From Candidatus Poribacteria bacterium (lineage in GTDB: Bacteria; Poribacteria; WGA-4E; WGA-3G): 64,000 nucleotides of DNA. The notes below the pieces were generated by a model. The model did not search any database, was not told where the DNA came from, and saw only the letters and a program-made list of their open reading frames with translations. Where the stretch lies: the NCBI GenBank assembly GCA_009839745.1, contig VXPE01000036.1, positions 130,763 through 194,762 on the forward strand. Direction: 5' to 3'. The translations under genes were made by a program, and so were the position numbers. Shown one piece after another: positions 8,885 to 61,363 of the stretch. Position 1 is the stretch's first letter; the number at the start of each line of letters is the position of its first letter.

Positions 8885-8937
8885 CGTATCTGACGCGACG
8901 ATAATAGCACTCCACTCTCTATAGAAGGAGAATTCAG

Positions 8938-9360: not shown

Positions 9361-9380
9361 AAACTGCAATGCAGTTAACA

Positions 9381-9408
9381 AAAAAGGCAGCTTCGGCTGC
9401 CTTTTTTT
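9381..9408 (+). terminator. Intrinsic terminator with UUCG tetraloop
   Basis: A5 run, then GGCAGC-TTCG-GCTGCC, then T7. It is placed 20 bases after the exbD stop. The flanking A and T runs make it work on both strands, so it can also serve the converging gltB transcript. Confidence 0.93.
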
Positions 9409-9460
9409 ATTATATAGACTGTCAGGTAGACTTCTGGTGCTTATCCTGCAGTTGCGTTTT

Positions 9461-13954: not shown

Positions 13955-14208
13955 TTCTAAACTGACTCTCCATACATTCTTCTTTATTTTTTTGCATTGG
14001 CATTGTAGAGCGGGCTTTCCATCCCTCGCCATTTTGTATTTAATCTGCGGGGCGAGGTTTGCGCGTCTTAGCCCTGCTCCTTTTTATGAAGGATACAAAC
14101 AATCAGAAAACGGATTTCGTTTTCAGGGGTGGATAGGATGTTTTTAAGGCTTAAATCGGATGCTGACTCCTCATATCCTACCAGAGGTAGCGCGCCCCAA
14201 GGCAAGAG

Positions 14209-14250
14209 CACCTTTGAAATCAGCAGCGATCCGCGATCGCGTCAAAGGTG
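14209..14250 (-). other. Nested hairpin in the gltB leader
   Basis: Arms CACCTTTGA (14209-14217) and TCAAAGGTG (14242-14250) enclose a second perfect stem GCGATC/GATCGC with a 3-base loop. It sits in the roughly 370-base untranslated leader between the promoter at 14329-14357 and the gltB start. A second hairpin, GAAAACG/CGTTTTC, lies near 14107-14125. A regulatory RNA is possible; no known riboswitch class was recognised. Confidence 0.5.
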
Positions 14251-14328
14251 ATTCGCGACTGGCGTGGCGGGTTACATGCTTCGGTTCAGTCCTCAATCTT
14301 TGAGCCGAAACCGTCTGTTCACTTTAAT

Positions 14329-14357
14329 ATTATACCCTAATTTAAGCCAAAAGTCAA
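14329..14357 (-). promoter_or_regulatory. Sigma-70 promoter for gltB
   Basis: On the minus strand TTGACT (14357-14352), 17-base spacer, TATAAT (14334-14329). It lies between the end of ggt and the gltB leader and gives a transcript with a leader of about 370 bases. Confidence 0.75.
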
Positions 14358-14372
14358 AAAAATCCTCTTGCC

Positions 14373-15983
14373 TCAATAGCCGACAGCACACCCATCTCGT
14401 CTTGGATCTGAACCTGCGATCAGCGTGCCGAAGGATGGGTTGATGAAAATTGCTTGTCCTCCCCCAAAAAAAGTGTTTCCGGGTATGATATGATGTCCTT
14501 TTTGTGCCAAAGCCGCTTGTGCATTCATTGGAATGCCTGCCTCCAGCATAATCCGCGAGTCATCCATCACGCGAAACCGAGGTGCGTCTAATGCGTTTTG
14601 CACGTCCATATTGAAATCCACCAGGTTGCATACGAATTGTAAATGTCCTTGTGCTTGCATCTGTCCTCCCATAACACCAAAGGTGACTAAGGGCACTCCG
14701 TTTTGCGCAATCATGCCAGGGATAATCGTATGCAGTGTGCGTTTATGTGGCGCAATACAATTCGCGTGGTCGGGACTCAACGAAAAACCCGCGCCTCGAT
14801 TTTGTAACATAATTCCCGTGTCTCCAGCAACTAACCCTGAACCAAAACCCGCGAAGAGACTGTTGATAAAAGAGACGACATTTCGTTCGCTGTCAACCGC
14901 ACAGAGATACACCGTATCGCTTCCCATTATTGGCATACCTGGGCTTGACTGCTCGTTTGCTCGTTCCGGTGAGATGCGCTCTCGCTGGCTTTCTGTATAA
15001 TCGTTGGACAAGAGTCCGTCTACTGGGACATCCACAAACGTCGGATCCGTCACGTATTCGTAGAGGTCTGCAAATCCTAATTTCATTGCCTCAATTGCAT
15101 GGTGTAAATGTTCAGGACTGTTATGCCCCATCATTTCGAGTTCAAATCCTTCAACGATGTTGAGTGCGAGGAGTGCAGCGATTCCCTGTCCATTTGGGGG
15201 TATTTCATAAACATCGTAGCCTCGATAATTAGTAAAAATCGGTTCTACCCAATCTGACGTGTGTTCAGTAAAGTCGCGTTGCGTAAATAAACCTCCGTTT
15301 TCATCGGAGAATTTCACGATTTTGTCAGCAATTTCCCCTTGATAGAAGGCATCGCGTCCGCCTTCTGCGATCAACCGAAATGTCCGTGCAAGGTTTGGTT
15401 GATAAAAGATTTCCCCGGGTGTCGGTGCCTTTCCATTCTGGAGGTATGTCCGTGCTGTGTCAGGATGCTGCGCCAACATCTGCGCACTTTCTTGCCACGC
15501 CAGACTAATCTGTGGACTGACAGGAAATCCTTTTTCCGCGTAATTGATGGCAGGCTGAAGGACCTCTGATAGCGACATTGTTCCGCATTCGTCGAGGAGT
15601 GTTGCCCATCCGTCAATTGTCCCAGGGACAGTGACGGGATACATACTCCCAAAAGCAGGAATGTTCATCAATCCCTGCTTGGTAAAGACTTCTGGCTCTG
15701 CGGCATAAGGTGCTCTACCGCTCGCATTTAAACCGCGAATTACCCCCTCTTTGGGTTGATAGACGAGCATAAAGGCATCGCCGCCGATGCCGGTTGACAT
15801 TGGCTCAACAACGTTAAGAATTGCGGCAGTCGCAACCGCTGCATCAACGGCGTTTCCACCCTTCTGTAAAATCTGCAACCCACCCTGCGCTGCGAGCGGT
15901 TGACTCGTCGCAACTGCCCCGTGTTGGCAGATGACAGCTGAACGTCCAGGTCCAAATTGGTTTGGGGAGTACCCATCAAACAT
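14373..15983 (-). CDS. ggt: Gamma-glutamyltransferase (GGT family Ntn hydrolase)
   Basis: 536 aa; ribosome-binding site AGGAGAAG before the ATG. It has the N-terminal signature GGNAVDAAVATAAILNVVEP and MSTGIGGDAF. The autoprocessing site and Thr nucleophile are expected at SDTVYLCAVD (about residue 355), followed by NSLFAGFGSGLV and the substrate-binding region. The family cleaves gamma-glutamyl bonds (glutathione and analogues) and self-cleaves into two subunits. No clear signal peptide is present, so a cytoplasmic location is possible. The neighbour gltB produces glutamate; a functional link is only suggestive. Confidence 0.9.
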   Translation of the reverse strand: MFDGYSPNQFGPGRSAVICQHGAVATSQPLAAQGGLQILQKGGNAVDAAVATAAILNVVEPMSTGIGGDAFMLVYQPKEGVIRGLNASGRAPYAAEPEVFTKQGLMNIPAFGSMYPVTVPGTIDGWATLLDECGTMSLSEVLQPAINYAEKGFPVSPQISLAWQESAQMLAQHPDTARTYLQNGKAPTPGEIFYQPNLARTFRLIAEGGRDAFYQGEIADKIVKFSDENGGLFTQRDFTEHTSDWVEPIFTNYRGYDVYEIPPNGQGIAALLALNIVEGFELEMMGHNSPEHLHHAIEAMKLGFADLYEYVTDPTFVDVPVDGLLSNDYTESQRERISPERANEQSSPGMPIMGSDTVYLCAVDSERNVVSFINSLFAGFGSGLVAGDTGIMLQNRGAGFSLSPDHANCIAPHKRTLHTIIPGMIAQNGVPLVTFGVMGGQMQAQGHLQFVCNLVDFNMDVQNALDAPRFRVMDDSRIMLEAGIPMNAQAALAQKGHHIIPGNTFFGGGQAIFINPSFGTLIAGSDPRRDGCAVGY

Positions 15984-16055
15984 CTATCTTCTCCTACTTT
16001 CAGACTGATATCACTGTAGCACACCCCATGTTTTTTGTCAAATGTGGAGAATTCC

Positions 16056-16192
16056 GTCCATATTTCACAGATTTTTAGGAATTCTCAGGAAAAAATTGAA
16101 AAAAATTACGAAAATTTCTAAAAATTCTGTCAAAAATGCAAATTAGGACTTAACTTTTGCAGTTTCATGTCTATATTAATAGATAAGGGAAG
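16056..16192 (+). repeat. Promoter block, copy A (direct repeat of 20452-20585)
   Basis: This 137-base AT-rich block recurs at 20452-20585. Identical stretches include AAATTTCTAAAAATTCTG and a 28-base segment around the -10 element ending AGATAAGGGAAG. It contains TTAACT (16150-16155), a 16-base spacer and TATATT (16172-16177), so it is probably the promoter and regulatory region of the secreted-protein operon starting at 16317. Upstream of it, 15984-16055 holds nothing recognisable. Confidence 0.8.
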
Positions 16193-16316
16193 GCAAAACC
16201 TTCTCCAAACGAAATGTAGATAGGAACGAGTTGGCTTCGACTCTACATAAGTAATAATTGCTAACCCGCTTTGTGGACTACACGCAAGCACCACAAGTGA
16301 AAAAAGGAGAACGAAA

Positions 16317-16871
16317 ATGCGAAAAATCAAATCCAAAACCCGACTCGCGATAGCACTGCTGATTGGTGGATTCGTTCTTGCGAGTATGATGCTTTCAAAA
16401 GCCATCGGAGCACCCCGGGTAGACCCTTCAGCAAGTGACAATCTTAAAGAGAAATATGAGAATGTGTTTGTAGATGTGGAAAATAGAACAGCAGCCGTTT
16501 GGCTGAATGGATATATGCACGATGATAATGGAAATCGGATTGGTTACGTTGGTATCTATACAGGTCTGTCTGTTTACACAGACGCGAATCAGCAACTGGT
16601 AGCCTATTATTATGCAGACGCTACAAGCCAAATTGTGGACACAAATCTCAATGGAAGAGCCAATGCCTGGGTTAAGGTTCCCAATAAAGCTAGAGTCGGA
16701 CAAGGGCATGACATTATGGTGGGGCGGAATCACCCTGTAAACTCCGTGACCGTATCGGATAGCAATACCATCCCTGCAAATCTAGCTGGTGGTAAGGCTA
16801 TGAGGGCCTCTGCAGCATTTGGGCACGACGGGACTCGGGTGAGTGTTAGGTGTGATGTAACAGGTATTTAA
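16317..16871 (+). CDS. Secreted protein of unknown function
   Basis: 184 aa; ribosome-binding site AAAGGAG. A basic n-region (MRKIKSKTR) and a hydrophobic segment (about residues 10-30, ending SKAIGAP) form a signal peptide or anchor. The remainder is a small, probably beta-rich domain (TAAVWLNGYMHDDNGNRIG, YYYADATSQIVDTNLNGRANAW) without a family I recognise. It is the first gene behind the repeated promoter block and probably shares a transcript with the lipoprotein and two PD40 genes downstream. Role unknown; an extracytoplasmic location is likely. Confidence 0.7.
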   Translation: MRKIKSKTRLAIALLIGGFVLASMMLSKAIGAPRVDPSASDNLKEKYENVFVDVENRTAAVWLNGYMHDDNGNRIGYVGIYTGLSVYTDANQQLVAYYYADATSQIVDTNLNGRANAWVKVPNKARVGQGHDIMVGRNHPVNSVTVSDSNTIPANLAGGKAMRASAAFGHDGTRVSVRCDVTGI

Positions 16872-16937
16872 TGGATTATATCCATATCACAGGAACGAGA
16901 TAAAAGTTCACACAACGTACAAGGAGATGCTAATCTA

Positions 16938-17432
16938 ATGTATTACATCCGTATCGTAGCAACTCTTTTCATTATCACCTTGAGTCTCTTCTGGCAGCCA
17001 GGGTGTAAACAGGATGAGGGCACTTCGCTCTCATCCACATCTCATTCGTTTTTTCTTGAAAAACATAATAAGAAGGCGGCTGTAAAGGTGACAATAGGCG
17101 GAAAAGTGTGGAAAATCGATCCAAATATTTCCTATCAAGCAACAGGGGTGTGGACGAATCCAAATCCACGTTCGCTAACAGAGTCAGAAACGGAAAGGAT
17201 CCAGAAAATTCCAGCACTGATCCAAACATTAGAAACGCAACTTGATGAACTCGACAAGGAGTTGAGATACCTCAAGCGACTCGACCAGCCCCATATAAAA
17301 ATCCATTATAATTTTGGCAAACCACCCCACTTTTCACGGCAAGGCAAGATAAAAATGATTGACTTAGGTGAATTCCCTATGGAAATGGACCTCCCCGCTA
17401 AAATCCCATCAGGACAAGAGGAGAAACCATGA
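16938..17432 (+). CDS. Small lipoprotein with coiled coil
   Basis: 164 aa; ribosome-binding site AAGGAG. The signal peptide ends in a lipobox-like FWQPGCKQ (Cys near residue 23). A helical stretch, IPALIQTLETQLDELDKELR (about residues 94-113), reads as a short coiled coil; no known domain is seen. The stop overlaps the start of the next gene (ATGA at 17429-17432), showing translational coupling with the PD40 protein. A periplasmic partner of that propeller is a reasonable but untested idea. Confidence 0.7.
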   Translation: MYYIRIVATLFIITLSLFWQPGCKQDEGTSLSSTSHSFFLEKHNKKAAVKVTIGGKVWKIDPNISYQATGVWTNPNPRSLTESETERIQKIPALIQTLETQLDELDKELRYLKRLDQPHIKIHYNFGKPPHFSRQGKIKMIDLGEFPMEMDLPAKIPSGQEEKP

Positions 17433-18412
17433 AATACGTTTTCATCAGTTTCTATCTTTGTTTCACGGTGCTGCTTCCATTTGCAACAACACAAGCGGAA
17501 CTTACTGGGGAAGTTATCTTTGGACATCCTGAGCATTTCGACGAACTCTGGATGACACACGTAGAGGATCCCCGCGCCGCCCACAAGATTTTTTCAGACC
17601 CCGTAGAAGCAATTGGGAAATTTTCCGTGCAAAAAGGAGGGTCCCTCCTCGTCTTCATTTCTTTCAGAGGGATAGTCGCGGACATCCACCTTTTTGATAG
17701 AACGCAGCCTCGTCGAAAAACACGTAACCTCACAAAAGGCTTGTTTGATGGGATTTCCGATGTCGCTATCTCAAAAAACGGAGATGTCGCCTTTACCACG
17801 GCACTCTTAGATCCACCGGAGGCTCGGGGCATTTATCTCATTCCACATCGTGAACTCCAACGCAACCTTCCCGCAGCAACCCTGTTAAAACACGTGTCTG
17901 CCTCTAACGTCGAGTGGTCACCAAATGGCAGGGAAATTGCCTATGCCACCGTCTCCGAGGTTTTTCTGTTGAATCCGTTCACCGGCAAGAGTTTACGGGT
18001 CTCAAGGACGGGGACGGTTCCCGCGCTCTCACCTAATGGTCAAAAAATCGCGGTCGCTCACGCTTTTTGGCCCGCCCCTCGCGAAAACCATCTGAGCATT
18101 CTCTCCCTGGCAAGCCTGCAACCGGTGGCACACATAAAAGTGAAAGACATTCCAGAGGACGCGGTTGGCTGGTGGGGCTTGTCCTGGTCCCCGGATGGAC
18201 AGTATCTCATTTACACGATTTTCACTAAGAATTTCCAATCATTTCAGAATACCGCCGTGCCTATTTCCGGGGCCCCCCAAGAACGGGTTTTTGAGAAACT
18301 ACCTGGGGGCGGCGTGCCAGAGTTCGATTGGACAAACACGGCATACGCCGTTGAACCGACCGACCGAATTACAACACTCTGGGGCGCGTTGAAAACAGAC
18401 GATTTAAAATGA
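17429..18412 (+). CDS. Secreted PD40/TolB-like propeller protein
   Basis: 327 aa; the start overlaps the previous stop, with GAGGAG upstream. Signal peptide residues 1-23 (ending TTQA). Degenerate PD40 repeats follow: VEWSPNGREIAYAT, PALSPNGQKIAVAH and LSWSPDGQYLIYT. These Ser-Pro-Asp-Gly blades build a beta-propeller that usually binds proteins or peptides. The C-terminus ends ITTLWGALKTDDLK, matching the tails of the PD40 proteins at 18442 and 57751. The repeats are fewer and weaker than in the next gene. Likely periplasmic; substrate unknown. Confidence 0.75.
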   Translation: MKYVFISFYLCFTVLLPFATTQAELTGEVIFGHPEHFDELWMTHVEDPRAAHKIFSDPVEAIGKFSVQKGGSLLVFISFRGIVADIHLFDRTQPRRKTRNLTKGLFDGISDVAISKNGDVAFTTALLDPPEARGIYLIPHRELQRNLPAATLLKHVSASNVEWSPNGREIAYATVSEVFLLNPFTGKSLRVSRTGTVPALSPNGQKIAVAHAFWPAPRENHLSILSLASLQPVAHIKVKDIPEDAVGWWGLSWSPDGQYLIYTIFTKNFQSFQNTAVPISGAPQERVFEKLPGGGVPEFDWTNTAYAVEPTDRITTLWGALKTDDLK

Positions 18413-18441
18413 AACTTTCACCGGACAGAAGGAGGAACATA

Positions 18442-19479
18442 ATGAACTGTCTAAAAACCTCTGTTCTTTCACGAATAATAAGGTTTTTCTTTACGTGCTG
18501 TCTGTTCTATCTCGCCGGGGATCTAACTTCAATAGAGGCGAAGATCGTGTTTTGTGTCGATGATGATATTTACGTTATGAACGATGGCGGCTCCCGCAGA
18601 CGCAGGCTCACGCACAGCACGCAGGCGACACACCGGTATCCCCGCTGGTCACCCGATGGGAAGCGGATCGCTTTTACCAAATACTTGGACAAAACGAAGA
18701 GCCAAACCACGGCGGAAGTGTTCGTCATGAACGCAGATGGAACAGACCCGCAACGCCTCACCCATAACAATGTCCTCGATACAGATCCGTCCTGGTCACC
18801 AGATGGCCAACACATCGCCTTTTCAAGTACGCGTAGCGAAAGTTGGGAGATCTTCGTCATAGAAGTAGCGACGCGCACTGTCAGGCAAATAACAGGTATT
18901 GAAGGTGAGACAGATTCGGCAGCACCCGACTGGTCCCCAGATGGCACACAGATCGTTTTTGAGCGGTTCATTGACATTGAAAACGGGATCGTCCCGAAAA
19001 CCATCTACGTGATGTCCGCGGACGGACAGAACCAACGCCCTGTTCTCCGAGATCCACCACGCAATGGACCCCTCACGTTGCGGTACTTCCCTCGCTGGTC
19101 GGCAGATGGACAACGTATCCTCTTTTCTGAATCCAAATGGTTTGAGAAGGGGGATGTCGAGAAACTCATTATTCAACGGATCGGCGGCGGGAAACAGGAA
19201 ATAACGGATATTAATGACAGACTTGGAAACAATTGGATGAGTACAAGTACGTGTTGGATGGAGAATGATCGTGCGCTTCTCATCTCACTGATGTTAAAGG
19301 ATAAACCGAACCCAAATTATAACCTCTATCGTTATGGGCTCGAGACACGGAGTCTGAAACGTTTGACACGTGAGCCGAGCGATGAGACGTGGCCCGATTG
19401 GACTGAAGGCTCTTTATCCGTTTCACCACACGGAAAGTTGAGTACGCTCTGGGGCGAACTCAAGAAGACTGACTACTAA
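18442..19479 (+). CDS. Secreted PD40/TolB-like propeller protein
   Basis: 345 aa from the ATG at 18442 behind AAGGAGG (the frame is open from 18409). Signal peptide about residues 1-33, ending SIEA; then KIVFCVDDDIYVMNDGGSRR and successive PD40 blades with the SPDG core (WSPDGKRIAFTKY, WSPDGQHIAFSST, WSPDGTQIVFERF, WSADGQRILFSES). The C-terminus LSTLWGELKKTDY carries the LWGxLK tail shared with two other propellers here. A truncated, frameshifted copy of this gene lies at 21802-22004. Family proteins bind peptides or partner proteins in the periplasm; the specific role is unknown. Confidence 0.8.
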   Translation: MNCLKTSVLSRIIRFFFTCCLFYLAGDLTSIEAKIVFCVDDDIYVMNDGGSRRRRLTHSTQATHRYPRWSPDGKRIAFTKYLDKTKSQTTAEVFVMNADGTDPQRLTHNNVLDTDPSWSPDGQHIAFSSTRSESWEIFVIEVATRTVRQITGIEGETDSAAPDWSPDGTQIVFERFIDIENGIVPKTIYVMSADGQNQRPVLRDPPRNGPLTLRYFPRWSADGQRILFSESKWFEKGDVEKLIIQRIGGGKQEITDINDRLGNNWMSTSTCWMENDRALLISLMLKDKPNPNYNLYRYGLETRSLKRLTREPSDETWPDWTEGSLSVSPHGKLSTLWGELKKTDY

Positions 19480-19543
19480 AGTGAAAAGTCTGAAAACTCA
19501 AGAGAGTTCTCTTATTGAAACGTGAAAGTTTCTGATTTTAGTT

Positions 19544-19613
19544 TTGGCTTTTTTTCGTTAAATAAAGTATAATAGATTCATCATAGCGAATATTTGGTGT
19601 CTCACCAATATTC
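19544..19613 (+). promoter_or_regulatory. Promoter and inverted repeat upstream of the sigma-like gene
   Basis: TTGGCT (19544-19549), 18-base spacer, TATAAT (19568-19573). Just downstream, GAATATTTGGTG (19588-19599) and CACCAATATTC (19603-19613) form an inverted repeat with one bulged base. It lies at about +10 to +35, where a repressor operator or 5' hairpin would fit. Confidence 0.55.
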
Positions 19614-19657
19614 AATGGATGCAGAACTCGTATTTTTCTCAAAGAGGAGGGTAATTC

Positions 19658-20311
19658 ATGACATTGAGATGTCATCAATCCAAAGGCACAAAATGCCCGC
19701 GTTACATACATCAAGGATTTTTTCGTCCTACTGATGAAATGGTAAAACCGCTCTTACCAGATTTGCGCCGATGTGCGGCGTGCATAGCGTCCGCTGCCCC
19801 GCAACGTTTCGACCTCCGAGACGACTTATTCCAAGTCGCTTCCCTAACCCTCATCGAAAAGGGACCTGCGTTCAATCCAATACATCAGAGTGGCGCGAGT
19901 TTCGGGACCTTTATTCGCCCGCGTATCTGTGGAGCCTTGACGGATGGGAAAAAACGGGAACTCACCCATAGCCATCGCGAACATCCTATTTTTGAAGGCA
20001 CATGGGATTCATCCGAAGATACTGAAACTGAAGGCAATCAGGACATCGGATGGTTGTGGGAGGTGCCAGACGCTCACGCTGAATTTGAGACGGCACTCGT
20101 TCGGGACATCAGTTTTGCGACTGCGTTGCCGAAACTCCTAAAAATACTAACACCCCGCGAACGAGAAATCTTCGCTTGCCTTCGTGAGAATCAACAGAAT
20201 TGCGAGATTGCTGAGGCGTTGACGATCTCTGAAGCGCGTGTCAGCCAACTGGTGAAACAGGTAACCCTGAAACTGACAAACGCAGGCCGACACCTGGGTT
20301 TGGCGGAATAA
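19658..20311 (+). CDS. Divergent sigma-70-family factor
   Basis: 217 aa; ribosome-binding site GAGGAGG. The N-terminus holds Cys pairs (CHQSKGTKC, RRCAAC) that could bind a metal. Residues about 50-105 resemble sigma region 2 (DLRDDLFQVASLTLIEKG, SFGTFIRPRICGALTDGKKR). Residues about 160-212 are a clear region 4 helix-turn-helix (LTPREREIFACLRENQQN, ISEARVSQLVKQVTLKL). It lies between two promoter blocks of near-identical sequence, so it may direct transcription from them (inference). No adjacent anti-sigma gene was seen. Confidence 0.75.
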   Translation: MTLRCHQSKGTKCPRYIHQGFFRPTDEMVKPLLPDLRRCAACIASAAPQRFDLRDDLFQVASLTLIEKGPAFNPIHQSGASFGTFIRPRICGALTDGKKRELTHSHREHPIFEGTWDSSEDTETEGNQDIGWLWEVPDAHAEFETALVRDISFATALPKLLKILTPREREIFACLRENQQNCEIAEALTISEARVSQLVKQVTLKLTNAGRHLGLAE

Positions 20312-20363
20312 CAATTTTCGGAGGTTCACACTATCGTGGAAATCATCACACTACACATATAGG

Positions 20364-52616: not shown

Positions 52617-52955
52617 ATGGGTTATAGGAAACGAGATAAAAAAACGGATAGTATAGTGGAGACAGAAGCCACTTATGCCATCCAGGCACCGGCACATCAA
52701 CAACCCGATAATCAAACCATCGCCAAAGAACACTTCGAAATCGTCCGCGGTATGGTAGAACGCCTTCCGAAATCAGAGAAAGAAGTGTTTCTATTGAAAT
52801 TTACAGCTCCCGACATGTCCCTCAAAGAGATCGCCGAAACGTTACGCATCTCAGAGAATGCTGTTAAGGTTCGGTGGCATCGAGCAAAGAACACGTTGAA
52901 AACCTGGCTCGAAACTGAATATCCGGAGGAATTTACCGATTGGTTCAGCAGGTAA
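52617..52955 (+). CDS. Sigma-70 region-4-only protein
   Basis: 112 aa from the ATG at 52617; the frame opens at 52557 (132 aa). It contains a complete sigma region 4 helix-turn-helix (LPKSEKEVFLLKFTAPDMS, LKEIAETLRISENAVKVRWH; about residues 45-85), typical of ECF sigma factors, but no region 2. It may be a truncated sigma factor, or a stand-alone regulator. It is 76 bases upstream of the RRE-glycosyltransferase gene and on the same strand, so it may regulate that cluster (inference). Confidence 0.6.
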   Translation: MGYRKRDKKTDSIVETEATYAIQAPAHQQPDNQTIAKEHFEIVRGMVERLPKSEKEVFLLKFTAPDMSLKEIAETLRISENAVKVRWHRAKNTLKTWLETEYPEEFTDWFSR

Positions 52956-53030
52956 ATACAGAAAGGATGGCCACAAAAGGCAAAAGACCTTCTTTTTTGC
53001 CTTCCCCAGCGAACCCAAAAGGGCAGCATT

Positions 53031-54668
53031 GTGCAAAAAATGCGACATCGATATACACTTATAGAATTCCAAGAAAACGCGTATTTAGCAGATTTAGAGT
53101 ACCATCGCCTTTTACCTGTTGATGAATTGGTGCAAGACGTATTTGAGCGACTTGAATCGGATACCGAAGAGATCGTTTCTGACTTAGCCGACACGTATAC
53201 TGAGGCTGAGATTCGTAATTGTCTCCAGTACCTTCATTGGCCCCAGGAGCAACGTTTCTCAAAAACGCTGGAGGCACCGTCTTTTAAAATCTTCGCGCCG
53301 AGATTACATTCAACGCATGAACAATTGAGATGGAACACGTTAGGTGCCTCTGTTGCCCACATTGAATTGCTGAAGGCGTTATCGAAATACGCCACAATTC
53401 ATGTAACTCAGGAATTTGAGGACATGGAGAATATGGTTCTGATGCCTTTCAATATTCATGAGAAACCGTCTGCTTATCGGATGATCAAAGAGAATTATGA
53501 TGGTGTTTTGTTGTGGTATCTTGACGAAGTTGAGATGATGTCCGCGCTCAATTATCTCCACGTGCCGGTTGTCTTGCCTATCTACGCCGCACGTCGCGAT
53601 AATGGACGAATTATCAATCGGATGATGCACTGGTATGCTTCGATGCGGCATTTCGATGCCTTCATGACACTCACCCAACCGACGATTGACTTGTATTCGA
53701 CATTCATTGAGGACACCTCATTGTTTCATATTGTGCCTTGTGGTGTGGATACCGATTTTTTCCAACCCGCAGATAAAATACAGGCAAAACAGAAAGTTGC
53801 GGAATTATTAGGGAGACCTGAAATTACCGAGAAGCCCGTTGTTGGATACATCTCAAGATTTGAGGTTGAAAAAGGCGCGGGAGTTTTTATGGATGTCGCT
53901 CGTTTGATGCCGGAAGTTTTCTTTGTGGCCGCAGGTCGGATAGAAGACACCCATCGCTACGATTTTCCAGAAAATCTCGTTCACAGTGGGAGACGTCCGC
54001 GCGAAGAGTTACCTGTTCTCTATAACGCCTTTGACGTGTTCTGTTTCCCAAGTCTTGCGTGTTCTGAGGAGTTCGGGTTGGTGGTTCTTGAAGCGATGGC
54101 GTGTGGAACTGTGCCAGTGGTATCCAGTTACGATGGTCCGAAATACGTGGTAAAAGACGCAGGAGTCGTTGTGCCTGCAATGCTGTATGGTCGTGATATG
54201 ACGGGGCTCGGTGGCGGGATTTTGGCTGAGGACTTTGCCGAAGCGATTATGGAACTTTTACAAGACGATGCCCAAAGACACAAACTTGCTGAAAAAGGAA
54301 GACAGCGGGCACTTGAGCTCACATGGGACAACAGTGCCAAATGCCTCCTACGGGTTTTTCAAGAACTGAATGCGAAAAAACATCTCGTTAGGCAGAGATC
54401 TCACATGCCGATAGGTTTTGGTCTCAACGAAAATGTAGATGGGACTGTTAATCCGAAGGCAACGATTATCAATGCCAGACGCGAAGGCAATACGCCCCTA
54501 ACGGGGACTCTCTACGATACATCCGTAGAAGAAGGAATCGCCCTATCGCTTTTACAAAATCATAGTATGCCTGAGATTGAGGTGATCCTTTCCGCCTTGT
54601 TGGCAGATGACGATGCGGTAGCAGAACATCTCGATCGCTTGAAGGGATTCATGAGGGCATTGTTCTAA
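53031..54668 (+). CDS. GT-B (GT4-like) glycosyltransferase with N-terminal RRE/PqqD-like domain
   Basis: 545 aa from the GTG at 53031 (AGGG upstream; ATG at 53040 is an alternative). Residues about 6-70 have the winged-helix pattern of PqqD-like RiPP recognition elements (NAYLADLEYHRLLPVDELVQ, TYTEAEIRNCLQYL). Residues about 85-470 form a GT-B fold with GYISRFEVEKGAGVF, SGRRPREELPVLY and the EX7E motif in EEFGLVVLEAMACGTVPVVS (Glu 346 and 354). A short helical domain closes the protein (about 500-545). GT4 enzymes are retaining and use nucleotide sugars. An RRE fused to a glycosyltransferase implies a peptide acceptor, perhaps the Cys-rich protein at 59292. The RRE call is by pattern only. 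Confidence 0.75.
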   Translation: MQKMRHRYTLIEFQENAYLADLEYHRLLPVDELVQDVFERLESDTEEIVSDLADTYTEAEIRNCLQYLHWPQEQRFSKTLEAPSFKIFAPRLHSTHEQLRWNTLGASVAHIELLKALSKYATIHVTQEFEDMENMVLMPFNIHEKPSAYRMIKENYDGVLLWYLDEVEMMSALNYLHVPVVLPIYAARRDNGRIINRMMHWYASMRHFDAFMTLTQPTIDLYSTFIEDTSLFHIVPCGVDTDFFQPADKIQAKQKVAELLGRPEITEKPVVGYISRFEVEKGAGVFMDVARLMPEVFFVAAGRIEDTHRYDFPENLVHSGRRPREELPVLYNAFDVFCFPSLACSEEFGLVVLEAMACGTVPVVSSYDGPKYVVKDAGVVVPAMLYGRDMTGLGGGILAEDFAEAIMELLQDDAQRHKLAEKGRQRALELTWDNSAKCLLRVFQELNAKKHLVRQRSHMPIGFGLNENVDGTVNPKATIINARREGNTPLTGTLYDTSVEEGIALSLLQNHSMPEIEVILSALLADDDAVAEHLDRLKGFMRALF

Positions 54669-54689
54669 TAAAGGTTATAAGAAAAACGT

Positions 54690-56321
54690 ATGATACAGTT
54701 TCCCATTCATTTAAAAGCACACAAAAGGTTCAATGATGCCGGACATACCTTTGTTGCGGACATAGAAGCGGCGTGTATCTTTGAAGTCAATGAGCTAGTA
54801 TCCGAGGTCCTTGATATCTGTGAAGGCTCCACGACAGCACAAGTAAAGGCGGCATTGCGCTCGAAATATCAAGAATCTGAGATTAACCAAGTTTTCGCTT
54901 ACCTCTTTCAGCTGCAAATGGCAGGGATATTGTTTCATCAGACATCGGTGATAGATAAGGAACGTATAGAATTCTCGGGAAAGATTGTTGTTTCACCGAG
55001 TTTTCTGTATCGGCTGGATCAAAAGTCGTTTCTCACACGCGTCGCCTACCATCAGTTGTTCCGGGCACTTTCCAAAAGGTTAGAAGTCTTTATACCTACT
55101 ATCAATACAGAAGGTCTCCCGACAAATTTCGACTGGGAAAGAGTCACCCCCTTAGAGATACCCACCGAGGTGGGACAGAATGTGATCGGATACTATCCAG
55201 AGGACTGTCATGGGGTATTAAGTTTACCACATTCCATGGATCATGATGTTTCATTAGCATACTCGTCTCGGATCCCAACGATATTTTATGTATCGAGTGC
55301 CGAACCCGATAGACAGTTGATTTTGGATAAGTTCTTTCTCCTTCGCGATTGCGATGTGTTATGTGTCGATTCGTGGTGGTTGAAAGAGTATCTGGCACAA
55401 TTTGTGTCTGATACAGAGAGAATTGTCGTGTTGCCTGTAGGTGTTGATGGGGACGTTTATACACTGAAAGATGCGAATGAATCTAAGTTAATGCTCGCCG
55501 GAGCGTTTGAGAATGCGCGTATGAAATCGGATCCGCTGATACTCCTGTTTTTGCCGAATGCAAGTTATGAAAATCGGAATTTGGTTCATCTGCTTGCTCG
55601 GACGCATCCCGAGTGCCTCTTTATCGTTGTAGGCGGTATGGATTGTTCGCAACTCGGTCATGATTGTGAAAATATTGAATACTTTCAGATTGAGGACATC
55701 ACGGATTATCAAGCTTTACCGGTTATTTATAATGCTGCCGACTTAGGGTATTACGCCGCCGTCCCGGGTGCCAATGGTTTTTATCTCTCGAGTGCCTTAT
55801 ATTGCGGGACTTCGATGATCCTTTCCGGGGCACATAACAACAGCACGATGCAAACGTTAGGTGCGTATCTCCACATCCCCGCCAATACACCACCTGTTGA
55901 AACGGCTGACATCGTTTCAAAATCTCTCACCGCCTTGCTGGCGGATCCATCTGTGCTGGCACACTACAGGGATGTCGCCATTCGTAAGGGGAGAAGTTTC
56001 ACGTGGGAGGCTGTCGCGAAAGCACTCAAAAACCAGTTTATCTCGCTTCAGGAGAGAGTGCCTGAAGCGGCAACCACCGGGACGCATCCCCTCTCTTTCT
56101 TTCAGTATCACTATGACACGATACAGGGAAAAACGACCCCTGCTGCGTATGAAAGACCTGCTTTTCTCCGCGAGGATGTGAAAAGTGCCATTGCGAAAGA
56201 ACTGATGCAGGCACATTCCATCAATCAGGTTTCCGTTGTTCTTGAACATATCTGTAAAGATGCAAGCACTGCAGAAGAGATACGCAAATATCTCTCTATA
56301 GGAAGGATGCCGCATGAGTAA
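54690..56321 (+). CDS. GT-B-like protein with N-terminal RRE/PqqD-like domain and degenerate active site
   Basis: 543 aa. Residues about 8-85 fit the RRE pattern seen in radical-SAM peptide maturases (HKRFNDAGHTFVADIEA, FEVNELVSEVLDICEG, KYQESEINQVFAYLFQL, GILFH). The rest aligns in layout with the preceding gene. However, the EX7E region has become GANGFYLSSALYCGTSMILS (about residues 360-379), lacking both Glu. It is therefore probably a non-catalytic partner. The C-terminal helical module (VKSAIAKELMQAHSINQVSV, about 496-540) parallels that of its neighbour. A 21-base gap separates the two genes and the next gene overlaps by 8 bases. Confidence 0.72.
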   Translation: MIQFPIHLKAHKRFNDAGHTFVADIEAACIFEVNELVSEVLDICEGSTTAQVKAALRSKYQESEINQVFAYLFQLQMAGILFHQTSVIDKERIEFSGKIVVSPSFLYRLDQKSFLTRVAYHQLFRALSKRLEVFIPTINTEGLPTNFDWERVTPLEIPTEVGQNVIGYYPEDCHGVLSLPHSMDHDVSLAYSSRIPTIFYVSSAEPDRQLILDKFFLLRDCDVLCVDSWWLKEYLAQFVSDTERIVVLPVGVDGDVYTLKDANESKLMLAGAFENARMKSDPLILLFLPNASYENRNLVHLLARTHPECLFIVVGGMDCSQLGHDCENIEYFQIEDITDYQALPVIYNAADLGYYAAVPGANGFYLSSALYCGTSMILSGAHNNSTMQTLGAYLHIPANTPPVETADIVSKSLTALLADPSVLAHYRDVAIRKGRSFTWEAVAKALKNQFISLQERVPEAATTGTHPLSFFQYHYDTIQGKTTPAAYERPAFLREDVKSAIAKELMQAHSINQVSVVLEHICKDASTAEEIRKYLSIGRMPHE

Positions 56322-57435
56322 ATACGATATTCTGTTAGCAACGATTGCTGTGGGTTTTTGTCTCTGGGCGACATATACCGATATGAGAACCGGGAAAATA
56401 AAAAATGCCTGTTCTATTGGGTTGTTATACGCGGGTGTGATTTCACAAGTGATGTTCCTGCTGCTCGAGAAAACAATCATTAGCGCAAGCCTCTCTGTTT
56501 TTATCATCGGTGGGATCATCGCCTTCGGAAGTTACTGGCTGGGGATCCTTGCCCCCGGAGATGCGAAACTCTATTGGGGAATTGTCATGATATTGCCCCC
56601 TTCTGTCTGGGGTAGAAACCTTTCTGCGTTTCCGAACCCCGCATTGATTATCTTAGTGAATATGTTCAGTGTCTATTTGGTGTATAGTCTCATCCATACA
56701 GGGATCAAGTATTTCACGTTACACAAGACGTTCGCACTTCCGAGAGCGCTTCCTGTTAAGGAATTCATACAACAACTCCCGGAAAATCTCTTGTCCTTGC
56801 TCCGTTTTTTGGCGATCCTGCTCTGTGTAGAATTCTTCGCGTATCAATCGCGAAGTCAATTCACTTTTTTTCATCTCATGCTGGCAATTCTTTTATCCTA
56901 CGGACTTGACCGTGGCACGAAAAAGTTCCAGATCAAAGCCTATATTTCTTATCCCGTGTATTTCATCCCTGCGGTTGCCATTTTTATATTCTATCCTATT
57001 CTTCTATTGGCATATTGGAAAAAGTTTCTGTTGTTTGCAGTCGTCTATCGTTTGGTTCTCCCCCTCATTAGCACGTACATGCTGCAATTGGATATGTCGT
57101 GTCTGAGCACATTTGTGCCGATTGAGCAGCTTCACCCCGGTATGATTCCGGCAGAGAAGATCATCAGAACGGATACAAATGACGGAACTTTGTATAGGAA
57201 AGAGCCAGCGTTCGTTTCAGAGTCCTTTGATAAAAATGTGCTTATTTCACCTACCCCGGAAGGGTTGTCTGATGAAAGTGTTCAGGCCCTCAAGGCGTTG
57301 GGGAAGTCGGGGTGTTTTGACGATTTCGGGGGCACCTTGGCGATCCAACATTCGGTACATTTCGCACCCATCATTCTAACAGGAACGCTTCTGACGATTG
57401 TGTGTGGAGGGGTCTTTTATGCCCCAATAATTTAA
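56314..57435 (+). CDS. A24-type (prepilin peptidase-like) membrane aspartyl protease
   Basis: 373 aa; overlaps the previous gene by 8 bases with AAGGA upstream. Membrane protein with about eight to ten helices. Two Asp motifs match the A24 family: YTDMRTGKIKN (Asp 23) and LAPGDAKLYWG (Asp 83). The cytoplasmic methylation/zinc domain of PilD is absent, as in shorter A24 enzymes. A soluble C-terminal region follows (about 260-345). No pilin or type II secretion genes are near, so cleavage of a cluster-specific precursor leader is a plausible role. Tight coupling to the two RRE proteins supports a shared pathway. Confidence 0.75.
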   Translation: MSKYDILLATIAVGFCLWATYTDMRTGKIKNACSIGLLYAGVISQVMFLLLEKTIISASLSVFIIGGIIAFGSYWLGILAPGDAKLYWGIVMILPPSVWGRNLSAFPNPALIILVNMFSVYLVYSLIHTGIKYFTLHKTFALPRALPVKEFIQQLPENLLSLLRFLAILLCVEFFAYQSRSQFTFFHLMLAILLSYGLDRGTKKFQIKAYISYPVYFIPAVAIFIFYPILLLAYWKKFLLFAVVYRLVLPLISTYMLQLDMSCLSTFVPIEQLHPGMIPAEKIIRTDTNDGTLYRKEPAFVSESFDKNVLISPTPEGLSDESVQALKALGKSGCFDDFGGTLAIQHSVHFAPIILTGTLLTIVCGGVFYAPII

Positions 57436-57586
57436 GAGCGTTGCCTTTTGGACAGGGCACCTTATTGTTCCAAGCGTAAGTAGACTCAGAAGGTGAGTTT
57501 TCGACTCGCATAGTGTTTGCTAGCTATAGGTTGACATGTCCAGTTTTATGAGGTTTTTAGGACACCTCGTTAATTCTGCCCTATTT

Positions 57587-57602
57587 TGTGCAATCTGGCA
57601 CA
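57587..57602 (+). promoter_or_regulatory. Dyad/enhancer-like site (TGT-N10-ACA)
   Basis: TTGTGC-AATCTG-GCACAA (57586-57603) is a perfect dyad and contains TGT-N10-ACA, the spacing of NifA-type upstream activating sites. It lies about 90 bases upstream of the sigma-54 -24 box, a suitable position for an enhancer-binding activator. Confidence 0.5.
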
Positions 57603-57676
57603 ATGGTCTGTCCGAATTGGATCCGGAAGTTATGTTCTTTCTGTAGAGTTCCCCGTACGCAGGGTATTCGCGAAAT

Positions 57677-57693
57677 TGGCACGAAACTTGCTA
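57677..57693 (+). promoter_or_regulatory. Sigma-54 promoter
   Basis: TGGCACG-AAAC-TTGCTA (57677-57693) matches the -24/-12 sigma-54 consensus with correct spacing between GG and GC. It lies about 57 bases upstream of the PD40 gene start. The region 57436-57676 otherwise holds the dyad and no gene. Confidence 0.82.
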
Positions 57694-57750
57694 TAGTCGG
57701 ACACAAATGAATCTGGAAGAATCTCAATGACATAAATAGAGGGTATAAAA

Positions 57751-58728
57751 ATGAAAAGAATACTTGCCTATATTGTAGTGTCGGGAACGGCACTACTCTT
57801 CGGGCATTTCTGGATCCCGTTGAACCTGTCTGTCTATGCAGTCGATGTTCGGTATATTGCTTTTAGTTCCAATCGGAGTGGAAATTATGACATCTACATG
57901 ATCGATATAAATGGTGAAAATCTCCAGAATATAACAAACCACCCAGCGAATGATTCTGCACCCACATTTTCGCCGGACGGACAGCGGATGGCTTATGTTT
58001 CCTCTCGGGGCGGCGATTGGGACATTTATGTGATGAATCTCAGGACAAAGGTATCCGAGCAGTTGACGGATCATCCCGGACAGGACGAGGGGCCCGCATG
58101 GTCTCCAGATGGACGATGGATTGCATTTAATTCTGATAGAGCCGGGATAGATAATATTTACAAAATCGCGCCCAGTGGTGCAAATCTCCAACAGTTGACG
58201 CACGGGGATCAGAAGAACATAACCCCGTCTTGGTCCCCTGATAGCCAATTCATCGCACTTCGTTCTTCCGGAGTCCGTCTTGGATCTCCCTCGAGCATCT
58301 CTATAATAGATGCGGATGGAGGTAATCTCAGCAGGCTCAAAAACCAACCCAGCGAGCACGTATATATGCCCGCATGGTCTCCGGATGGCAAACGAATCGC
58401 CTTTAGTGCGAATTTAGGAGGAAACGTGGATATCTACACCGTAAACGTTGACGGGAGTGATCTCAGACGGATCACTCGCCATACGGCACTGGATTCGTCG
58501 CCCGCTTGGCACCCGGATGGACACGCTTTTATTTTTTCTTCCATGTGGGACCAAAAGTTTGCCATCTATCGCATAGATGTGGCGGGCACCAATCGCCGGC
58601 GATTGACACCCCATCGGACACAAGATTTGCATCCAACGTGGGTGCCCACAGGCTTTTTTTCAGTCTTTCCTCTGATCAACTCACAATCAGTCTTGTGGGG
58701 TAGACTCAAGCAGTCTGTCAGTGACTAA
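57751..58728 (+). CDS. Secreted PD40/TolB-like propeller protein behind the sigma-54 promoter
   Basis: 325 aa; GAGGG 7 bases before the ATG. Signal peptide about residues 1-30 (ending SVYAVD). Six regular PD40 blades with the SPDG core: FSPDGQRMAYVS, WSPDGRWIAFNS, WSPDSQFIALRS, WSPDGKRIAFSA, WHPDGHAFIFSS and a terminal half-blade. The C-terminus SQSVLWGRLKQ shares the LWGxLK tail with the two propellers at 17429 and 18442. Likely periplasmic, probably a binding partner for a peptide or enzyme of the cluster. The propeller is complete and more regular than the other two. Confidence 0.85.
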   Translation: MKRILAYIVVSGTALLFGHFWIPLNLSVYAVDVRYIAFSSNRSGNYDIYMIDINGENLQNITNHPANDSAPTFSPDGQRMAYVSSRGGDWDIYVMNLRTKVSEQLTDHPGQDEGPAWSPDGRWIAFNSDRAGIDNIYKIAPSGANLQQLTHGDQKNITPSWSPDSQFIALRSSGVRLGSPSSISIIDADGGNLSRLKNQPSEHVYMPAWSPDGKRIAFSANLGGNVDIYTVNVDGSDLRRITRHTALDSSPAWHPDGHAFIFSSMWDQKFAIYRIDVAGTNRRRLTPHRTQDLHPTWVPTGFFSVFPLINSQSVLWGRLKQSVSD

Positions 58729-59291
58729 TGGAAGTGCCTCGGAGAGCGGGAGCGTGACTCTATAGAACATTAGGGAATTACGAGTTTCCAACACCACAAA
58801 AGTTGGAAACCAAGGATGCCTGCTTATCTATTCAGGATAGGCGAAAAATAGAACAATAAAGGAGTTGTTCATAGATAGTTCTTTTTCTCTTTTTTCTATG
58901 CTTTTCTTTGTGACGGTAAACGTAGGCGTTTTGAGGAGTTCGATTCCCCTCTACCGCATTCGGTAGCGTGTGTTAAAACCAAGCACCCTGATAACAACAA
59001 AATCAGTGCTATCGAAAGGGTTCATACGCGAGTGAGACGAGCCCTGACACTATAAGGACACTCGGAAGAAGAAAAGTGGTAGCATTTCGGTGCTATGCTT
59101 TGTAGATTCCACCATACCACTCGCTCTTTTGTGGTATGCACGCCGTCCATAGTTTCTGCTTACGTGGGCAGATTATGTCGGCTATAGACAAGCTTAGGAC
59201 ACTACGGTGTCCGTAACAGGGTCTTCTAAGCCCTACAAAAATCCGTGTTTTTCTACAAAAACATTGGTTTTTATGAATAGGAGATATTTTG
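58729..59291. other. Structured intergenic region upstream of the Cys-rich peptide gene
   Basis: A 560-base stretch without a credible gene but rich in pairing: hairpin CTACCG/CGGTAG (58951-58966); a pairing of GTGGTA (near 59075) with TACCAC (near 59115); nested stems GCTTA/TAAGC around GGACAC/GTGTCC (59192-59231, loop TACG); and TGTTTTT/AAAAACA (near 59247-59266). A long, structured leader or a small RNA is possible. No consensus promoter stood out. Confidence 0.5.
58914..58958 (+). other. tRNA 3'-end-like sequence (T-arm and acceptor remnant)
   Basis: AGGAG-TTCGATT-CCCCT (58934-58950) has the shape of a tRNA T-arm with the invariant TTCGA, apart from one A-C mismatch, followed by CTACCGCA. 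A partner CGGTA lies only 34 bases upstream, so no complete tRNA is present. It may be a tRNA fragment left by integration or excision, or chance. Confidence 0.3.
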
Positions 59292-59612
59292 ATGCGAAGT
59301 CATTTACATCAACGAGTCAACCGTAAAGTCTCTCACTTTATCCTGGGTGAAGAAGGTAAAGTGGGGAGCCGGAGTGCGTTTACTGCCGCAGCCGTCATCG
59401 GTGCGACATCGTTAGCCGGAATGTTCCTCAGTCCACCTAAGGCATCTGCAGATTGGTGGTGTAGTGATATTCAATGTCATGACGACGACCAATGTTGTGG
59501 ATGTTGGGATGAGCACCTCAATGATCCCTGGGAAAACTGTACCCAAGGGGATTACGACTGCAGGAGTGCAGACTATGTTCCGACTCCAGGTATCTCTTGC
59601 TGGACAAAGTAA
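59292..59612 (+). CDS. Cys-rich precursor-like secreted protein (candidate RiPP precursor)
   Basis: 106 aa from the ATG at 59292 (AGGAG 8 bases upstream). Residues 1-53 form a long basic leader (HFILGEEGKVGSRSAF) and a hydrophobic segment (32-46) ending at an AxA site (KASA/D). The 53-residue remainder has eight Cys (57, 62, 68, 69, 71, 83, 90, 103), twelve acidic residues, few basic ones and several Trp (DWWCSDIQC, CCGCWDEHL, NDPWENC). Disulfide, thioether or glycan modification is possible; Ser and Thr are few (Ser 58, 92, 102; Thr 84, 98, 105). No family recognised. Context: two RRE-type proteins, an A24 protease and a propeller upstream. Confidence 0.75.
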   Translation: MRSHLHQRVNRKVSHFILGEEGKVGSRSAFTAAAVIGATSLAGMFLSPPKASADWWCSDIQCHDDDQCCGCWDEHLNDPWENCTQGDYDCRSADYVPTPGISCWTK

Positions 59613-59662
59613 AAGTTCAGGGTGTTGATCACCCGTTTGAAACCTCCTGAACGTTTACTTTG
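59605..59662 (+). terminator. Long hairpin overlapping the peptide-gene stop codon
   Basis: Arms 59605-59621 and 59646-59662 pair at 16 of 17 positions (outer CAAAGTAAA/TTTACTTTG, inner GTTCAGG/CCTGAAC). The TAA stop is inside the 5' arm. Likely a transcript stabiliser or attenuator that raises the precursor mRNA over the distal genes, as in many bacteriocin operons. No T-run. Confidence 0.8.
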
Positions 59663-59746
59663 CTTATGTAAGTTGGGAGATGTGCGAATGATGGAGGTTT
59701 CCATCTCTGTCAACGTCTCATCTCCCTTTTCAATGAGGAGCATCTT

Positions 59747-60031
59747 ATGTCAAAATATGGCACTTTCTATGTCGTAACAGTAAATCCGGGAGTTAGACCA
59801 GGCCGTTTAAAGAAGTTTCTGTTAACAGAATGGTTTATCGCCCTTCAGTCCACTTCAGGGTGTCTTGATGTAGAACTTTGGGAAAGCCAACGTAGTCGCG
59901 GTCGTTATTTGGTGTGTGAACTCTGGGAGAATAAAGACATCAGTCTTCAGAACTCCGAGAAACTCTGGAATGAGGAGAAGAAGGATGTCTTTGAAACACT
60001 AAACTTATACGGAACAATAAAATCCGATTAA
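59747..60031 (+). CDS. ABM-fold (antibiotic biosynthesis monooxygenase-like) small protein
   Basis: 94 aa; ribosome-binding site GAGGAG. One dimeric alpha-beta-barrel domain: strand FYVVTVNPG, helix RLKKFLLTEWFIAL, strand GCLDVELWES, strand RYLVCELWENK, helix NSEKLWNEE. Enzymes of this fold act on quinones, haem or polyketides without a metal or cofactor. Here it could modify the peptide or a redox partner, but no catalytic residues are diagnostic. It lies between the peptide gene and the cytochrome-like gene. Confidence 0.75.
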   Translation: MSKYGTFYVVTVNPGVRPGRLKKFLLTEWFIALQSTSGCLDVELWESQRSRGRYLVCELWENKDISLQNSEKLWNEEKKDVFETLNLYGTIKSD

Positions 60032-60088
60032 GACGGCACCACTCCAAAAGCCTTGCACCAAAGTTTCAGAATGTATAAAAGGAACATA

Positions 60089-61363
60089 ATGAAGAAAAAA
60101 CATCTCCTATGGATATTGCTGCTAACCGCGCTCGTGGCGACACCGCCGATCTATCACCGGTTGAGCGAGGCGCGTCGCTTAAAACAGATTAAGACAGTAA
60201 AACACGAGGCATCTCAAATCAACGCTGTTCCGTTGAACGAGTTCATGGCAAGGTTGAAGGGTGCCTCACCGGAAGAGACGTTACTCGTGCTGTATACGGG
60301 CAGCACACACGGACATCTTGAGCCGTGTGGCTGCTTCATCGGTCAATCGGGTGGGCTGCCGCGGCGTGCGACTGCACTCGCGTCTATTCGATCTCAGGGA
60401 TTTTCTCCGTTGTTGGTAGATCTGGGTGGTGTTCTCCCGACTCAAGACTCCAAGATGCAGGAGGATCTTCTGACATCTCCCAATGATGCCGTAGCCGAAA
60501 CACTTGCGCCTCCTGCGGTGCTCCCATTGGACTATCTGAGGACACAGAAGATGCTGGAATCAATGCGATTGTTGAAATATGAGGCACTCGTCCCCGATAA
60601 AGCGGATATGATTTGGGGTGAGGACGTTCTGACAGGGACACTCGCTCACCAAGCGTTTCCGATCCTTACCACCAATATTGAGGGATTCGGCGGCAATGTT
60701 CAATCTCTTCTGACCAAAAACGTGGGGAATAAAAAAGTGGCAGTGTTAGGGCTTTCATCGCTGGGACTTGAAGACACAACTCTCACGGAACTCGCCCCTC
60801 TTTTTTCTGAAATACAGAAGCAAGTCGACGTTATCGTTATCCTGAGCAATCTGTCCCCGGAAGTGAACCGGACGATAGCTGAAAAGTATCAGAGCGTTTC
60901 AGCGATTTTGAGTCCTGGAACCGGAGAAACAGAAAACGTGGGAAATGTGCTTCTCGCTTATAGTGGTGTCAACGGGGAAACCTTGGGGGCACTGCTGCTG
61001 AATGTGGGGGACACTTTAGGTGCCTCGGCACAACAAATTGCACTGACCGAGGATGTGGAAGACGACACACAAATCAGGGAACTTTTGCTGGACTTCCATA
61101 CGCAAGTCGCCACTGACCCACAATTGCAAGCGGGCGGTGAACGTCTGTTTTCTGATGAAGCACTCGAGCAGGATCCCCGAAGTGGTTACGTCGGTTCTCA
61201 GGCGTGTGCGACCTGTCACCGAAAGGAGTTTGATCAGTGGGCACACACGTCCCATGCGACCGCCTTTAATACACTCTTGACAGTAGGGAAACAGTTTTAT
61301 CCCGAATGTGTCTCCTGTCATGTCAATAGAGACGGGTTCCTTTGTAGCTACTTTTGCGTTTAG
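60089..61363 (+). CDS. UshA-like protein with C-terminal c-type haem motifs, truncated
   Basis: 424 aa from the ATG at 60089 (AAAAGGA upstream). N-terminal signal anchor (LLWILLLTALVATPPIYH). Residues about 65-330 match a 5'-nucleotidase/metallophosphatase-like layout (LLVLYTGSTHGHLEPCGC, GQSGGLPRRA). Near the C-terminus two haem-c sites appear (CATCHRKE near 379, CVSCHVNRD near 410). The protein ends 9 residues after the second site (FLCSYFCV), whereas related multihaem cytochromes continue with more CxxCH motifs, so the end looks truncated. Probably a periplasmic electron-transfer or haem-dependent enzyme. No CxxCH was seen downstream in other frames. Confidence 0.7.
   Translation: MKKKHLLWILLLTALVATPPIYHRLSEARRLKQIKTVKHEASQINAVPLNEFMARLKGASPEETLLVLYTGSTHGHLEPCGCFIGQSGGLPRRATALASIRSQGFSPLLVDLGGVLPTQDSKMQEDLLTSPNDAVAETLAPPAVLPLDYLRTQKMLESMRLLKYEALVPDKADMIWGEDVLTGTLAHQAFPILTTNIEGFGGNVQSLLTKNVGNKKVAVLGLSSLGLEDTTLTELAPLFSEIQKQVDVIVILSNLSPEVNRTIAEKYQSVSAILSPGTGETENVGNVLLAYSGVNGETLGALLLNVGDTLGASAQQIALTEDVEDDTQIRELLLDFHTQVATDPQLQAGGERLFSDEALEQDPRSGYVGSQACATCHRKEFDQWAHTSHATAFNTLLTVGKQFYPECVSCHVNRDGFLCSYFCV

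Follow-up and report, generated by a model that had tools for sequence, protein, structure and literature searches.

RRE-fused glycosyltransferase pairs and hypervariable peptides define a candidate peptide-glycosylation and export system in Poribacteria

In a 64,000-nucleotide stretch of the Candidatus Poribacteria contig VXPE01000036.1 (hereafter the window), plus-strand genes between positions 52617 and 61363 encode two adjacent glycosyltransferases (GTs), here called GT-A and GT-B, together with an A24-type peptidase, a secreted beta-propeller, a small Cys-rich peptide and accessory proteins. Both glycosyltransferases begin with a RiPP recognition element (RRE), a domain known from the biosynthesis of ribosomally synthesized and post-translationally modified peptides (RiPPs), and beside them lies the gene of a short precursor with a conserved leader and a variable core. 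By its precursor and its RREs the cluster is a RiPP-type system, modification of the core being predicted from the genes. We favor, with moderate confidence, the reading that it is an RRE-guided peptide-glycosylation and export system. The architecture is not a chance arrangement, since this genome contains some ten GT-A/GT-B pairs that have diverged from one another, and other members of the phylum have the architecture too.

GT-A (53031–54668) joins its RRE to a GT4-type glycosyltransferase domain of the GT-B fold (Glycos_transf_1, 1.4e-23), and GT-B (54690–56321) joins an RRE, recognized by profile match, to a degenerate GT4 domain. A reading of the DNA made without database searches, hereafter the sequence-only reading, had proposed PqqD-like N-termini for both proteins, and these are genuine RRE domains. 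In Pfam the PqqD family is matched below threshold by GT-B (E = 0.03) and not at all by GT-A. A profile built from 46 GT-B N-termini matched the RRE of CteB (PDB 5WGG, residues 6–84) with E = 1.3e-14, the next match standing at E = 0.02, and the GT-A family profile matched residues 4–103 of the same structure with E = 1.6e-11. The AlphaFold2 model of GT-B residues 1–96, at a mean predicted local distance difference test (pLDDT) score of 89, shows a strand-strand-strand-helix-helix-helix order, and Foldseek placed 5WGG/5WHY at the top for this model, followed by the TbiB1 and lasso B1 RREs of leader-binding proteins; on this fold model and search the RRE of GT-B comprises residues 1–87 (54690–54950). 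A scan of the whole genome with PF05402 gave eight matches, seven of them in the N-termini of these glycosyltransferases, and the RREs are retained in both pair members throughout the phylum.

The window precursor (59292–59612) is a 106-aa protein with an ATG start, in which the AxA site and the 8-Cys core lie as first described. Its leader reads VSHFILGEEG followed by KVGSRSAF...SPPKASA, and the core that follows is DWWCSDIQCHDDDQCCGC...ISCWTK. It is one of a family comprising 98 unique peptides, whose leaders are conserved and whose cores are hypervariable. The F...E.G block is invariant in the leaders, which also have a hydrophobic stretch and, immediately ahead of the core, an AxA, whereas cores whose leaders are 70–80% identical are only about 30% identical outside Cys, compared with 28% for shuffled cores. 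The cores (28–44 aa in the middle half) contain 14% Cys, mostly as 4, 6 or 8 residues, and the Cys number is even in 80 of 92, as expected if all core Cys sit in disulfides. Ser or Thr stands just ahead of the last Cys in 41 of the 92, against about 10% Ser plus Thr overall; together with the even Cys counts, this leads us to guess at an O-linked acceptor rather than Cys. Profile searches in Pfam and the PDB gave the cores weak, scattered matches (defensin-like, lustrin, Dickkopf, granulin) and the leaders a match to an unrelated reductase, and neither was used.

Distribution ties the peptides to the GT pair. Among 85 Poribacteria genomes, 40 carry the peptides and 33 the GT pair: 33 have both, seven the peptide alone, none the pair alone and 45 neither (Fisher p = 5e-17). 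At least one of the seven peptide-only genomes is an artefact (G074, where a GT fragment at a contig end fell under the search cut-off). The genome of the window has 20 matches to the Cys-rich open reading frame (ORF) and 23 to GT-B, the latter counting GT-A members and fragments. The linkage is also physical, for a peptide lies nearby in 36 of the 37 GT pairs with enough flank. The sequence-only reading had staked itself on RRE matches at both N-termini and on GT pairs lying near Cys-rich ORFs in other genomes, and both were found. The 37 clusters include the A24 peptidase in 33 cases, a thiol-haem protein in 25 and an ABM protein in 10; the gene order is highly regular and runs GT-A, GT-B, one or more units of peptide plus propeller, methyltransferase, A24, a UshA-like/cytochrome c554/DsbA-like fusion (the thiol-haem protein), peptide, phosphomannomutase and a sigma-propeller regulator, with members varying between clusters. 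In 20 control regions (400 kb) from two GT-free Poribacteria genomes, none of A24, thiol-haem protein, methyltransferase, phosphomannomutase, sugar kinase or peptide was present. When GT-A was used to scan public genomes, the named relatives were all Candidatus Poribacteria; the sole exception, a weak and partial match, is probably an ordinary glycosyltransferase. On one contig (G017 C2), a multi-peptide stretch occurs twice with identical scores (8536–20336 and 243884–258682), which reflects either recent duplication or a repeat in the assembly.

The two glycosyltransferases look like an enzyme and a pseudo-enzyme. All 46 GT-A sequences keep the catalytic E-x7-E motif complete, and all 53 GT-B sequences, the window copy included, have lost its first Glu. 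The two proteins form two clean clades (support 1.0), and GT-A stands directly upstream of GT-B in all 60 adjacent pairs. The AlphaFold2 model of GT-A (pLDDT 82) found MshA (3C4Q, E = 2e-17) as its best Foldseek match, along with other GT4 enzymes that use nucleotide sugars. GT-A is thus the predicted catalytic subunit and GT-B a predicted non-catalytic, substrate-binding partner. A phosphomannomutase or GHMP sugar kinase accompanies 23 of the 37 clusters and none of the 20 control regions. The cluster kinase is nearest to HddA (1.5e-44), and a nucleotidyltransferase of the type II clusters described below is nearest to mannose-1-phosphate guanylyltransferase/HddC (about 1e-40); because these and the phosphomannomutase all score below their curated cut-offs, a donor of the GDP-mannose or GDP-heptose type is a guess.

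Two natural variants of the cluster bear on what the pair might modify. In seven genomes, type II clusters combine the GT pair with related leaders and almost wholly Cys-less cores, most of which end in AI or AT; one core keeps a single Cys. The sequence-only reading had the glycosyltransferases bind the precursor through the RRE and modify its Cys-rich core. That the Cys residues themselves are modified is not supported: the same pairs serve Cys-less cores, which makes a need of the GTs for Cys unlikely, and the even Cys counts likewise speak against it. Cys is probably not the target of the GTs, and thiol chemistry probably forms a step of its own. The thiol-haem protein follows the Cys, being present in 25/37 Cys-type and 0/7 Cys-less clusters (p = 0.001, from related genomes that are not fully independent). 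The type II loci (L144, L176–L182) also encode a transglutaminase-like protein, an ABC-2-type permease and a sugar nucleotidyltransferase, the first two labels coming from reading the sequence rather than from a search. The second variant is a compact GT-free cluster (L139–L142) with peptide, propeller, A24 and UshA/cytochrome/DsbA-like protein, and a sigma-propeller gene nearby. Taken together, the Cys-less and GT-free clusters point to glycosylation and thiol oxidation as modules that can be separated, with leader and peptidase shared between them.

We envision the following sequence of events. GT-A and GT-B would assemble into a heteromer and use their RREs to bind the leader at its conserved N-terminal part. 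GT-B, as a pseudo-enzyme, would hold the substrate, and GT-A would transfer the sugar, the donor of which is probably of the GDP-mannose or GDP-heptose type. The acceptor would probably be a core Ser/Thr and not Cys, with the [G/S]-[S/T]-C that contains the last Cys as our best guess. The precursor may then be exported through Sec by way of the hydrophobic half of its leader and be cut by A24 after the conserved Gly of [S/G]EEG, by signal peptidase at AxA, or by both. The exported UshA-like/cytochrome c554/DsbA-like fusion, associated at the gene level with Cys-type clusters, might there oxidize the core thiols to disulfides and pass the electrons to its haems. The mature disulfide-rich (glyco)peptide could finally pair with the secreted beta-propeller whose gene accompanies it. 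That the cores are hypervariable and the copies numerous suggests a repertoire of secreted molecules with binding or bioactive functions.

Several observations weigh against this scheme. Leader and RRE distances correlate (Spearman about 0.6), but the co-variation is not specific, as the partial correlation falls to 0.10–0.17 once A24 is used to control for shared descent. Two cores lack any Ser/Thr although their cluster carries the GT pair, which means that the acceptor cannot be Ser/Thr in every case. In four genomes, peptide, propeller, A24 and thiol protein occur without a GT pair, and the peptide is therefore not dependent on glycosylation. Signal peptidase alone could process the leader, and sugar transfer, acceptor and cleavage are all predicted from the genes.

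The peptidase gives rise to the first alternative. In the window it is an aspartic peptidase of the prepilin/preflagellin type with an A24 domain and an archaeal-type C-terminal domain, Arc_PepC (56314–57435; Peptidase_A24 2.7e-5, Arc_PepC 2.5e-7). Its catalytic Asp residues (TDxxxxxIxN and GD) are conserved throughout, in 49/49 and 50/50 sequences that extend over the respective site, and it is predicted to be the leader peptidase. The peptides could instead be pilin-like or membrane-anchored subunits, cut by A24 after EEG so that the hydrophobic segment either anchors them or assembles and the Cys domain is displayed, with the GTs acting as pilin-type glycosylases. Such an arrangement would fit an A24 gene with conserved Asp in nearly all clusters and the invariant Gly ahead of a hydrophobic segment, both features shared with type IV/Flp pilins. 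The leaders, however, lack the Flp signature GXXXXEY (PMC5430801), the C-termini are hypervariable, and Flp_Fap has no match in the genome or in any of 22 peptides, on which grounds an identity with Flp pilins was rejected; nor was a pilus ATPase or platform gene recognized in the conserved set, in which not every flanking ORF was searched. We regard the pilin-like reading as unlikely.

About as improbable, in our view, is that the GT pair glycosylates the co-encoded propeller, its C-terminal tail or another partner, the leader being only a scaffold and the peptide unglycosylated. The propeller gene does usually adjoin each peptide gene, lying directly downstream of 77 and directly upstream of 37 of 118 peptides, and the two cores without Ser/Thr would be accounted for. 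Yet the GT pair and peptides of type II clusters come without the scored propeller families, and the leader-peptide binding by which RREs are defined (PMC7470986) argues for the peptide as substrate. As to the tail, many secreted Poribacterial proteins (PD40, Kelch, BNR and LamG-like) carry a C-terminal tag resembling TTTWGxLK, for example in the window at 17429–18412, 18409–19479 and 57751–58728 (the last being the PD40 propeller of the cluster, 1.9e-55, ending in VLWGRLK), in L021, L022, L030 and L156–L175, and in others. It occurs in 49 of 212 ORFs of at least 200 aa in cluster loci and in one of about 1980 equivalent stretches elsewhere; a WGxLK-type tag is a candidate C-terminal sorting signal. 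Since genomes that have neither the GT pair nor the peptides commonly show the tag as well (14/309 ORFs in G021 and G028), it was set aside as a GT target.

The preferred reading, peptide glycosylation guided by the RREs, also has to be weighed against decay of the clusters, or a vestigial RRE on ordinary polysaccharide glycosyltransferases. The UshA-like haem gene of the window (60053–61363; NF041198 1.6e-47, PF13435 8.8e-5) is indeed truncated: its homology ends past the second CxxCH, and the remainder is absent from the next 2.6 kb. Its description as a haem-c protein stands in so far as it matches cytochrome c554, but the family is a thiol-disulfide fusion whose full-length relatives (616–672 aa) carry further haem motifs and a C-terminal DsbA/GILT-like domain. 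Longer UshA-like/cytochrome copies occur elsewhere in the same genome (L021:11024–13033, L027:11833–13683). RREs may be vestigial in some RiPP enzymes (PMC7470986). Against decay stand the retention of both RREs across the phylum, the invariant catalytic motifs of GT-A and A24, and a GT pair that never occurs in a genome without peptides, and we give it little credence. The least credible proposal makes the small protein a redox subunit comparable to the gamma subunit of quinohaemoprotein amine dehydrogenase and acting together with propeller and haem protein through an amino-acid-derived cofactor: a small Cys-rich chain with a propeller, c-type haems and an ABM-type protein does resemble the layout of that enzyme and of methylamine dehydrogenase, but the cores are hypervariable apart from Cys, 14 of 92 lack Trp, the clusters contain no radical SAM gene, and no haem protein was recognized in the Cys-less subtype.

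The remaining genes of the window cluster bring in accessory functions. An ABM-fold (antibiotic biosynthesis monooxygenase-like) protein is encoded at 59747–60031 (PF03992, 3.6e-5). At 52617–52955, the ORF first read as a sigma factor does match sigma-70, though Pfam recognizes region 4 alone (Sigma70_r4_2, 6.4e-11); it is a possible regulator, and a similar ORF lies upstream of the GT pair in a relative (L034). Near 20 of the 37 clusters, an ECF-type (extracytoplasmic function) sigma factor is fused to a large beta-propeller in a protein of about 970–1000 aa (for example L021:14442–17345, L025:2911–5883 and L029:2090–5104), which looks like a one-protein sensor-regulator. All gene positions and junctions first reported, including the 8-base overlap of GT-B with A24, were found in the sequence, and the labels GT, A24, PD40, ABM and haem-c were borne out by Pfam.

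We put at an even chance that these clusters represent a new RiPP class, in which leader-guided glycosylation would be carried out by a heteromer of active and inactive RRE-fused GT4 subunits, alongside an A24 peptidase and a haem-wired DsbA-like oxidase, with the pair reused on unrelated cores within one phylum. RREs serve for the discovery of new RiPP classes. We found no literature on such a system in Poribacteria and, in the literature searched, no RRE-guided glycosyltransferase system that had been worked out. RRE-glycosyltransferase fusions are mentioned without detail by RRE-Finder (PMC7470986), and PF00535 RRE fusions in a 2025 paper (PMC12710340); the main texts describe no such cluster, although RRE-Finder clusters may overlap with ours, and the Poribacteria system differs in its GT4 type, its active/inactive pair and its defined precursor family. 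Poribacteria, which are uncultured, abound in marine sponges (PMC3909097), where hypervariable secreted mini-proteins may be bioactive or host-interaction molecules. Each step of the scheme is separately testable, with a precursor family, natural enzyme/pseudo-enzyme pairs, GT-free natural knock-outs and a Cys-less control subtype at hand, and the leader/RRE/GT module could serve as a programmable tool for peptide glycosylation.

Among characterized systems, GtfA/GtfB of the accessory Sec pathway is a complex of a catalytic and a chaperone-like GT that modifies an exported protein, the serine-rich repeat adhesins, before secretion (PMC6973325). The Poribacteria pair likewise consists of adjacent catalytic and degenerate GT-B-fold subunits, their complex being predicted. 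GtfA/GtfB contact the acceptor via DUF1975, which has no Pfam match in the window pair or in 12 GT-B members; the Poribacteria pair has RREs instead. No accessory Sec gene (SecA2/Y2) is among the recognized cluster genes, and the leader/core peptide, A24 peptidase and thiol-haem protein of the Poribacteria clusters are absent from the GtfA/GtfB system. Glycocins of the sublancin and glycocin F type are also disulfide-rich ribosomal peptides with dedicated GTs; they carry the sugar on Ser or Cys, and are usually made by a single GT2-type enzyme without an RRE and exported by an ABC transporter/peptidase. Against this general background, the Poribacteria system has a GT4-type pair, nearest to MshA in structure rather than to the GT2/SunS-like type, together with RREs, a Sec-like leader and A24. 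The absence of common RiPP enzymes noted from the window extends to YcaO, the hallmark of linear azol(in)e-containing peptides and thioamides (no PF02624 match in the genome), and to the radical SAM maturases of ranthipeptides/SCIFFs (0/16 radical SAM genes of the genome lie within a cluster). The nearest relative of the recognition domain itself is found in CteB, the SCIFF/ranthipeptide radical SAM maturase: in sequence it gives the top match to both GT N-termini, in fold the top match to that of GT-B. The substrate of CteB, too, is a Cys-rich leader/core peptide; the RRE of CteB is joined to a radical SAM enzyme that forms thioethers, whereas in Poribacteria the fusion partners are a pair of glycosyltransferases.

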